Source of the DNA: Salinigranum marinum
GTDB taxonomy: Archaea > Halobacteriota > Halobacteria > Halobacteriales > Haloferacaceae
Length of the DNA stretch: 64,000 bases
Assembly (NCBI RefSeq): GCF_024228675.1
Contig: NZ_CP100461.1
Location: 2,477,398-2,541,397 of the forward strand
Direction: 5' to 3'
Shown: piece by piece, positions 7,589-9,901 of the stretch
Numbering within the stretch: the stretch's first letter is position 1
How the letters are laid out: every line of letters starts with the position of its first letter
The notes under the pieces: model-generated
Database searches by the model: none
What the model saw: only the letters and a program-made list of their open reading frames with translations
Told to the model about the DNA's origin: nothing
Program-made: the position numbers and the translations under genes

Positions 7589-7729
7589 ACGTACTCGTAG
7601 CGAGGCCGCGCCCCTAAGTGCGTGTGCGCAGGCAGAGAGTGCCGGCTCGCGTCGGCTGGAAGACAGCCGACGGACAAACGTCCGACACGGTGTAAACGTT
7701 CAAGTACTCCGACGTACATCGGGCAGATG

Positions 7730-8284
7730 ATGAGTAAGATCACTTTCCGTGCCGACGATGACCTCGTCAGACGCCTCGAGGAGTTCGACGCGTCGAAAAG
7801 CGAGGTCATGCGCGAGGCGCTCCGCGCGTACCTCGACGGGACGGGACGTGAGACGTCGCAGACGCCGGGAGACAGCGTCGACGACGCCCTGGCCGCGCGG
7901 GTGGACTCTCTGATCACAGAGCGGCTAGACGAGCGTTTACACGGGCGAGCGGCCCGCAGAGACCCACAGGAGGTCAACGTCAACATCTCCGTCGACGGCG
8001 TCGCGCCCGAACCCCGCGTAAACGGGGAGTCCGACGCGGACGCGAGTGCAGACGATCGTAAGACACCTGGGGTGCGCGCGGACGACGAGTTGCAAACGGA
8101 CGGCGCGCCGTGTAGCCAGTGTGGCGAAACCGTCGCTCCTGACCACGTATACTGCCCGAACTGCGGGGAGAAGACGTCACAGCTCGCGTTCTGTGAGTGC
8201 GGCGACGAGCTCCGATCGGACTGGGCGTTCTGCCCCGGTTGCGGCCGACGAACGCCCGCTGCGGACGTTCTCGACCGACCGTAA
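7730..8284 (+). CDS. cdrL: RHH regulator with double zinc ribbon (CdrL-like)
   Basis: A 184-residue protein with an N-terminal ribbon-helix-helix DNA-binding domain (KITFRADDDLVRRLEEFDAS, then EVMREALRAYLDG). An acidic linker and two C-terminal zinc ribbons follow, with Cys pairs at CSQC/CPNC and CECG/CPGC. The position directly before cdrS-ftsZ2 matches the haloarchaeal cell-division regulator CdrL, reported to control that operon. Two adjacent ATG codons (7727, 7730) are possible. A GTAAGAC heptamer also lies inside the coding region at 8058-8064. Confidence 0.85.
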   Translation: MSKITFRADDDLVRRLEEFDASKSEVMREALRAYLDGTGRETSQTPGDSVDDALAARVDSLITERLDERLHGRAARRDPQEVNVNISVDGVAPEPRVNGESDADASADDRKTPGVRADDELQTDGAPCSQCGETVAPDHVYCPNCGEKTSQLAFCECGDELRSDWAFCPGCGRRTPAADVLDRP

Positions 8285-8320: not shown

Positions 8321-8492
8321 GACTTACGTTTTTGTCTTACGGTCGCCGGTAGATTTATAATACAAGCGGAATACCATACGATCGCGTAAGACGGTCGTCT
8401 TACAGCGTTCCCGGACGGTGGCACGGTGTGCCGCCGGTGTTCGGTTCGAGCGTGTAAGACGATAACACGGGCCGACATCCGAGCCGTCTTAC
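8321..8492. promoter_or_regulatory. Cluster of GTAAGAC/GTCTTAC sites before cdrS-ftsZ2
   Basis: Five exact copies of one heptamer in either orientation lie between cdrL and cdrS: GTCTTAC at 8334-8340, GTAAGAC at 8386-8392, GTCTTAC at 8397-8403, GTAAGAC at 8454-8460 and GTCTTAC at 8486-8492. A one-mismatch copy, GACTTAC, is at 8321-8327. The pair at 8386-8403 forms an inverted repeat with a four-base spacer. A TATA-like TTTATAA is at 8354-8360. Inverted short boxes are what dimeric RHH proteins bind, so these are probable operators for CdrL and/or CdrS. Confidence 0.8.
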
Positions 8493-8510: not shown

Positions 8511-8690
8511 ATGGAGCGTGTGACACTACGGATTCCGAAGCAGCAGATCGAAGAAGTCGAACGAATGGTCGAAACGGGAGAGTTCCCGAACCGGAGCGAG
8601 GCGATCCGGTCGGCCGTTCGCGACATGATTAACGAACAGGGCGACACCCGCGAGTCGACGTCGGGCAAGCGCAGCTGGGCGAGGGTCTAA
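8511..8690 (+). CDS. cdrS: Short RHH cell-division regulator CdrS
   Basis: A 59-residue ribbon-helix-helix protein: the beta strand [10 protein letters not shown] at the N-terminus is followed by helices [11 protein letters not shown] and [15 protein letters not shown]. The ATG at 8511 leaves two bases between its TAA and the ftsZ2 ATG, the diagnostic cdrS-ftsZ2 arrangement. CdrS is known in haloarchaea as a regulator of ftsZ2 and other division genes. The heptamer cluster immediately upstream suggests autoregulation. The C-terminal tail ([16 protein letters not shown]) is basic and probably disordered. Confidence 0.92.
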
Positions 8691-8692
8691 CG

Positions 8693-9901
8693 ATGCAGGA
8701 CATCGTGCAGGAGGCCATGCAGCGCGACGAGGCCGAACGCAAAGCCAAAGCCGAGTCGACCGACGACGACACGTTCGGCGATCCACGGATCGTCATCGTC
8801 GGCTGTGGCGGCGCCGGCAACAACACTATCAACCGCCTGTACAACATCGGCGTCGACGGGGCCGACACCGTCGCCATCAATACCGACAAACAGCACCTGA
8901 AGATGATCGAGGCCGACACCAAGATCCTCGTGGGCAAGTCGCTCACGCAGGGGCTCGGTGCCGGCGGCGACCCCTCGATGGGCGAGCGTGCCACGGAGAT
9001 GGCGCAGGGAACAATCAAGGAGGTACTCGGCAACGCGGACCTGGTGTTCGTGACGGCCGGGATGGGCGGCGGCACCGGGACCGGTGCGGCTCCCGTCGTC
9101 TCGAAGATCGCCAAAGAACAGGGCGCGATCGTCGTTGGCATGGTGTCGACCCCGTTCAACGTCGAGCGTGCGCGGACGGTGAAAGCCGAGGAAGGCCTGG
9201 AGAAACTCCGCAACGAGGCGGACTCCATCATCGTCCTCGACAACAACCGCCTGCTCGACTACGTCCCGAACCTGCCCATCGGCAAGGCCTTCTCCGTGAT
9301 GGACCAGATCATCGCCGAGACGGTCAAGGGCATCTCCGAGACCATCACCCAGCCCTCGCTGATCAACCTGGACTACGCGGACATGTCCACGATCATGAAC
9401 CAGGGCGGCGTCGCGGTGATGCTCGTCGGCGAGACCCAGGACAAGAACAAGACCCAGGAAGTGGTGAACGACGCGATGAATCATCCCCTGCTGGACGTGG
9501 ACTACCGCGGCGCGAGCGGTGGACTGGTCCACATCACAGGCGGCCCCGACCTCACGCTCAAAGAGGCCGAGGGCATCGCGAACAACATCACCGAACGGCT
9601 CGAAGCCAGCGCGAACGTCATCTGGGGCGCTCGCATCCAGGACGAGTACAAGGGCAAGGTCCGCGTCATGGCCATCATGACCGGCGTCCAGTCCGCACAG
9701 GTGCTCGGCCCGACCACGCAGAAGCAGGCCGACCGCTCGCGACAGAGCATCAACGCCCAGTCCGCTGGACAGTCGCAGTCGGGGCAGGCGAACGGCCAGG
9801 GCCAGCAGTTCGACGCCCGACAGAACGCCGAAGCCGGCTGGCAGTCCGACGGCGGTCACAACGAGGTCGAGAAGAACAACGGCCTCGACGTCATCCGCTG
9901 A
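8693..9901 (+). CDS. ftsZ2: Cell division GTPase FtsZ2
   Basis: Tubulin-superfamily GTPase that forms the constricting division ring in haloarchaea with FtsZ1. The 402-residue protein has [14 protein letters not shown] near residues 36-49, the GTP-binding signature [10 protein letters not shown] near 125-134 and the catalytic T7-loop motif NLDYAD. It has an N-terminal extension of about 30 residues and a Gln/Ser/Gly-rich C-terminal tail ending NNGLDVIR, likely a partner-binding tail. It is cotranscribed with cdrS. Confidence 0.97.

Follow-up and report, generated by a model that had tools for sequence, protein, structure and literature searches.

The closest described counterpart of this locus is the CdrL-controlled region of Halobacterium salinarum, which is the same locus with the same gene order as here. 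ChIP-seq of CdrL in that organism returned a single reproducible site, upstream of cdrS-ftsZ2 (PMC7439475). The text of that study contains neither 'motif' nor 'palindrom'; the heptamer code, the uniqueness of its pair in the genome, the leader fold and the copy within cdrL described below are additions of the present work. CdrL was placed in all sequenced Halobacteria (PMC7439475), whereas our HMM census detected no cdrL in 7 of the 145 haloarchaeal genomes sampled here. The CdrS regulon has been mapped in Haloferax volcanii by ChIP-seq of overexpressed FLAG-CdrS, with 18 sites, none of them at cdrS-ftsZ2 (PMC8406309). Its targets include ftsZ1 and dacZ, with a symmetric motif near -50 and -47, places that match the GTCNGAC positions found here, as well as a PRC-domain gene. 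In contrast to these CdrS targets, the cdrS promoter carries a different heptamer, GTAAGAC, at the predicted transcription start and not before the TATA box. GTAAGAC is not given as a motif in the text of either PMC7439475 or PMC8406309. No paper reporting these heptamers in haloarchaea turned up in a literature search.

In operators of the Arc/MetJ type, two ribbon-helix-helix (RHH) dimers bind in tandem about one helical turn apart within one operator, an arrangement to which we liken the central pair of boxes before cdrS. We know of nothing among Arc/MetJ-type operators that corresponds to the extra distant boxes or to the folding of these copies as RNA. A further likeness is offered by omega (ParB) of plasmid pSM19035, whose RHH dimers bind cooperatively, one dimer to each non-palindromic 7-bp box, at sites that overlap promoters and are mixed in orientation (PMC9499535). 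Omega heptads are however contiguous 7-bp repeats with a role in partition, whereas the boxes described here lie either 11–12 bp or roughly 50–70 bp apart.

A conserved heptamer array precedes cdrS-ftsZ2

Within the 64-kb stretch of Salinigranum marinum DNA analysed here (the window), five exact copies of GTAAGAC or its complement GTCTTAC alternate in strand between positions 8334 and 8492 (Table 1). A first-pass annotation of the DNA had placed them there, with a 4-bp spacer between the boxes at 8386 and 8397 and a sixth exact copy at 8058–8064(+) within cdrL, and all of these positions were reproduced. The window total of six copies is not unusual (3.3 expected; at least six in 15 of 100 shuffles), and the signal therefore lies in the clustering. 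The same annotation had judged five exact 7-mers unlikely by chance and had proposed counting the heptamer genome-wide and in related cdrS promoters. The genome holds 93 copies in 4,906,407 bp and no second such cluster; at this density, at least five copies in 159 bp have a probability of about 2e-15 per position and about 1e-8 genome-wide, which bears out the judgement. The sole other GTAAGAC pair closer than 100 bp in the genome lies on one strand with its copies 47 bp apart (G000:C1:2789484 and 2789531). Stronger evidence still comes from related cdrS promoters, with 486 exact copies in the 200 bp upstream of cdrS in 110 haloarchaeal loci, against 2.2 after shuffling; the annotation had named a lack of such enrichment as grounds for refutation, and the opposite was found.

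Table 1. Features of the cdrL-cdrS-ftsZ2 region in window coordinates.
Feature	Position	Strand	Remarks
GTCCGAC, CdrS-type box (GTCNGAC)	7680..7686	+	50 nt before cdrL start codon
cdrL	7730..8284	+	184 aa; RHH domain (RHH_1), CdrL_M region (PF24252), double zinc ribbon (DZR); Pfam
Intragenic GTAAGAC box in cdrL	8058..8064	+	Arg-Lys-Thr codons
Upstream box	8334..8340	-	Precedes TATA box
TATA box TTTATAAT of cdrS-ftsZ2	8354..8361	+	Position conserved among loci
Left box, central pair	8386..8392	+	At inferred transcription start
RNA helix H1, 5' arm	8386..8394	+	Left box x last box flank covariation
RNA helix H2, 5' arm	8396..8404	+	Right box x third box flank covariation; continues inward past a bulge in this species
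Right box, central pair	8397..8403	-	Spacer from left box conserved
RNA helix H2, 3' arm	8453..8461	+	Fold and covariation
Third transcribed box	8454..8460	+	Leader; exact in 70/104 perfect-pair loci
RNA helix H1, 3' arm	8484..8492	+	Fold and covariation
Last box	8486..8492	-	Just before cdrS start codon; exact in 102/110 loci
cdrS	8511..8690	+	59-aa RHH protein; Pfam RHH_1
ftsZ2	8693..9901	+	Pfam Tubulin and FtsZ_C

The array is a class-wide feature. cdrS is present in all 145 haloarchaeal genomes, and every one of the 110 upstream regions read carries a GTAAGAC array. The central pair, with a spacer of 3–5 bp, has exactly one occurrence in each of 139 of the 145 genomes, a count to be read with the genomes as samples drawn from the class and related sequences as not independent; the remaining six have the array with an altered spacer (2 or 6) or one changed box. 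In a separate set of 80 named loci the pair was found once in 78, and in 163 genomes of the phylum outside the class it was found in none. It is retained in two loci where both partner boxes have been lost (L096 and L108). In L004, L024, L072 and loci of the same family, a near-invariant stretch, GCGTCTGACAGGGGCGC, lies between the third and last boxes and includes a CdrS-type GTCTGAC.

The layout of the boxes relative to the promoter is equally constrained. With P denoting the base at which the left box begins, the TATA box lies 30–34 bp before that box in 95 of 104 loci, and P-32 is a T in 78 of 79 aligned loci; in the window, 32 bp separate the first T of TTTATAAT from the central pair. From the position of the TATA box we infer that transcription starts at the central pair, which would put four of the five boxes into the mRNA leader. 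The upstream box lies 5' of the TATA box and therefore outside the leader; it is exact in 84 of the 104 loci with a perfect pair, either reversed at about P-52 or forward at about P-65. The spacer of the central pair is 4 bp in 79 of 110 loci, 5 bp in 24 and 3 bp in one, and spacers of 2 and 6 bp also occur. The two heptamers are thus set 11 bp (79/110) or 12 bp (24/110) apart, about one helical turn, as in an RHH tandem operator. Among the 79 loci with a 4-bp spacer, both boxes, the preceding C and the TATA position are almost invariant (the left heptamer with its C in 79/79), and the inter-box positions are mostly near random. The last box lies 19–32 nt before the cdrS ATG across loci. The earlier proposal that the cluster acts as an operator stands in part; it had overlooked the predicted position of the pair at the transcription start, the placing of four boxes in the leader and the match between their alternating orientation and an RNA fold.

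Two heptamer codes and an ancestral array

Promoters of CdrS targets carry another heptamer. GTCWGAC is found in 27 of 30 ftsZ1 and 16 of 30 dacZ promoters, where GTAAGAC occurs in 1 and 0. The ftsZ1 promoters (L168–L197) usually have two GTCNGAC copies 11 bp apart, some 60–80 bp before ftsZ1 and directly before the TATA region. Counted as copies, cdrS promoters hold 486 GTAAGAC against 34 GTCWGAC, and the ftsZ1 and dacZ promoters together hold 1 against 53. Two codes one base apart therefore split the promoters, the CdrS-type GTCNGAC on one side and GTAAGAC, at cdrS only, on the other. The CdrS-type heptamer is also enriched upstream of cdrL, where 63 of 103 loci together contain 92 copies (5.7 expected), mostly 50–70 nt before the ATG.

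Across the S. marinum genome, GTCNGAC-N4-GTCNGAC occurs nine times (G000:C1:287469, 884234, 887980, 905081, 906581, 1080286, 2933834, 2950919 and 3332190), against one for the reversed control. One of the nine pairs precedes a PRC-domain gene, a gene type among the published CdrS targets (PMC8406309). Several others appear promoter-proximal and may be further CdrS targets.

Outside the haloarchaea, the CdrS-type heptamer occupies the cdrS leader itself. GTCAGAC or GTCTGAC (GTCWGAC) is present in 19 of 20 non-haloarchaeal cdrS-ftsZ2 loci; neighbouring exact boxes are spaced by multiples of 11 bp in all 22 cases, and degenerate units keep the same register. In these loci (L111–L130), the stretch from the TATA box to the start codon holds 2–8 units resembling GTCNGAC, set in an exact 11-bp register. 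This arrangement suggests that RHH dimers line up along the DNA, with one at every helical turn. In none of the 20 loci does a CdrL adjoin cdrS, and whole-genome searches of 17 non-haloarchaeal genomes gave only weak partial matches to cdrL. As GTCNGAC is found at the CdrS targets ftsZ1 and dacZ, in the cdrL promoter and in the outgroup leaders, we take GTAAGAC to be derived and to form a code of its own.

CdrL is the likeliest reader of GTAAGAC

The first-pass annotation had predicted control by CdrL, CdrS or both. Published data favour CdrL as the likeliest candidate reader of GTAAGAC, because its ChIP-seq site lies at cdrS-ftsZ2 (PMC7439475) and CdrS has none there (PMC8406309); the CdrL part of the prediction thus gains support, and CdrS as a reader of this heptamer does not. 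The array coincides with the sole CdrL-bound region (PMC7439475), and in 139 of 145 genomes the pair is found only there. The array and the known CdrS targets do not share their heptamer: ftsZ1 and dacZ carry GTCNGAC, not GTAAGAC.

A reading with CdrL as sole reader is too simple, because seven genomes without a detectable cdrL keep the pair. cdrL adjoins cdrS in 138 of 145 genomes by HMM census and is missing from G001, G002, G007, G026, G093, G136 and G138, three of which are single-contig assemblies. Outside the class the pair and CdrL are absent together (none of 163 genomes has the pair), yet within it the two do not always go together: all seven genomes retain the exact central pair, and a promoter comparison covering six of them shows the last box retained as well. 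Outside the boxes, these six promoters are 0.57–0.74 identical to the nearest cdrL-bearing locus. G001 and G007 are nearly identical at the locus and hence uninformative on the persistence of the operator after cdrL loss. We rejected a tie between loss of the upstream box and loss of cdrL as confounded by kinship, since cdrL-bearing sister species also lack this box. The losses of cdrL may be recent; alternatively, a further factor, which might be CdrS or the RNA, may also maintain the boxes.

The GTAAGAC copy inside cdrL is no accident and is itself under selection. It is present in 50 of 103 cdrL reading frames (54 copies against 1.9 expected), at a median of 320 bp before the left box. The Arg-Lys-Thr at this place is encoded by CGTAAGAC[A/G], that is CGT-AAG-AC[A/G], in 51 of 58 RKT motifs, while in the rest of cdrL CGT accounts for only about 16% of the Arg codons. 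Just upstream of cdrL, about 75 of 103 loci share 7-mers resembling tRNA gene sequence, and in a small-genome lineage (G021; L108 / L208) an additional RHH-like reading frame lies directly 5' of cdrL.

CdrS itself could instead read GTAAGAC at its own promoter, as a weakened, one-base-changed site of autoregulation that CdrL only modulates. Several points speak for this reading: CdrS occurs universally, the ancestral array in this position consists of CdrS-type heptamers, one GAC half-site is retained in GTAAGAC, and the pair survives in the seven cdrL-less genomes. We nevertheless consider it unlikely. None of the 18 CdrS sites falls at cdrS-ftsZ2 (PMC8406309), and the two codes separate cleanly between cdrS (486 vs 34) and ftsZ1 plus dacZ (1 vs 53). 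Moreover, the proposed contact-strand residues of CdrS (R3, T5 and R7, an invariant R-T-R; an equally invariant K-T-R in CdrL) are identical in haloarchaea and outgroups, which leaves no visible reason for a shifted specificity. The AlphaFold model of CdrL has a mean pLDDT of 66 with the RHH strand unresolved and was left unused.

The transcribed boxes are predicted to fold the leader

The alternating orientation of the boxes matches a nested fold of the leader RNA that is supported by covariation. In the window, the leader has a folding energy of -58.7 kcal/mol (z -3.2). The predicted pairing joins left and last box, at a mean probability of 0.93 over the loci folded, and right and third box. 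Since the heptamers never vary, the flanking bases were tested: in within-family shuffles, covariation reached z 4.1 for left–last and z 5.6 for right–third, and only these two stood out among all forward x reverse combinations. The same two box pairings were supported with one locus per genus and a sliding register. For the nested structure as a whole, covariation in 33 genus representatives was 0.108, against 0.057 ± 0.008 in shuffles, none of 500 reaching it; H2 shows compensatory changes in 5 of 12 pairs. These results support two predicted nested helices, H1 and H2, in the leader, the evidence for pairing as RNA lying in the flanking positions only.

Two other folds were discarded. The default RNAalifold consensus of the same alignment gives two simple hairpins, which lack covariation, unlike the flanks of the nested fold. 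A stem between the third and last boxes fails because 31 loci retain the last box although they lack the third, and because the flanks of the two boxes do not pair. Searched to E 1, the leader matches no family described in Rfam.

RNA-seq and Ribo-seq in Halobacterium suggest post-transcriptional control of the cdrS-ftsZ2 operon (PMC8303175), an observation consistent with, though no proof of, a role for the putative leader RNA. The transcribed boxes might even be purely an RNA element, with translation or processing of cdrS-ftsZ2 controlled by the folded leader or by a leader-binding protein. Such a reading would account for the strong fold, the flank covariation specific to the left–last and right–third pairs, the published post-transcriptional signal (PMC8303175) and the retention of the left and last boxes in genomes without cdrL. 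It is decidedly unlikely as a full explanation, however: 84 of 104 loci have an identical box ahead of the TATA box, another is conserved inside cdrL, the last box persists in the 31 loci without the third, compensatory change was never seen within the heptamers, and in L096 and L108 the central pair has outlasted both partner boxes.

A proposed composite control element of cdrS-ftsZ2

On balance, we lean towards reading the array as a composite control element of cdrS-ftsZ2, in which putative RHH operator DNA, transcribed copies that fold the leader and descent from a CdrS array are combined. Each heptamer would be the site of one RHH dimer, most likely of CdrL, a choice of reader that draws on the published ChIP-seq. 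Since the central pair (8386–8403) lies at the transcription start, its occupation should block or gate RNA polymerase, and the boxes before the TATA box and in cdrL could provide cooperative or looping contacts. Once transcribed, the four leader copies would form the two nested helices and so bring the 5' end into pairing with sequence that precedes the cdrS start codon, a fold that may affect translation.

Of the weaker readings, a CdrS-CdrL heterodimer might sit on the asymmetric heptamer with CdrS on the GAC half and CdrL on the GTA half. GTAAGAC and the symmetric CdrS-type box do differ in one half-site only, and the invariant contact strands differ at one of three positions. We consider this highly improbable, given that the pair is kept without cdrL, that ChIP-seq did not find CdrS at the cdrS promoter (PMC8406309) and that an RHH homodimer can bind heptads that are asymmetric, as omega does (PMC9499535). 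An artefact of chance or base composition, for which the unremarkable heptamer total in the window is the one argument, can be dismissed on the genome-wide clustering (P about 1e-8) and is refuted by the conservation of the array across the class.

For the composite element, the ancestor would be a self-regulation array of CdrS, with GTCNGAC in 11-bp register, persisting in the non-halophilic relatives, where CdrS presumably binds it. Haloarchaeal CdrS keeps GTCNGAC at ftsZ1, dacZ and cdrL, and a loop is therefore predicted in which CdrS would act on cdrL and CdrL on cdrS-ftsZ2. We hypothesise further, as a possibility that falls a little short of probable, that the heptamer is read twice, as an RHH operator in double-stranded DNA and as nested helices in the mRNA, and that this double reading replaced the older CdrS self-regulation array at the origin of the haloarchaea.

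The regulation of archaeal cell division is barely understood. The published network, with CdrL acting on cdrS-ftsZ2 and CdrS on ftsZ1 and others, had no sequence code for CdrL. Added here are two codes, one base apart, by which sites of CdrL type can be told from those of CdrS type, together with signs of an ancestral array phased at 11 bp and of leader folding. The pair, as a single address in the genome, offers a clean mutational target. If the double reading is true, transcription and translation of the division operon would be coupled.
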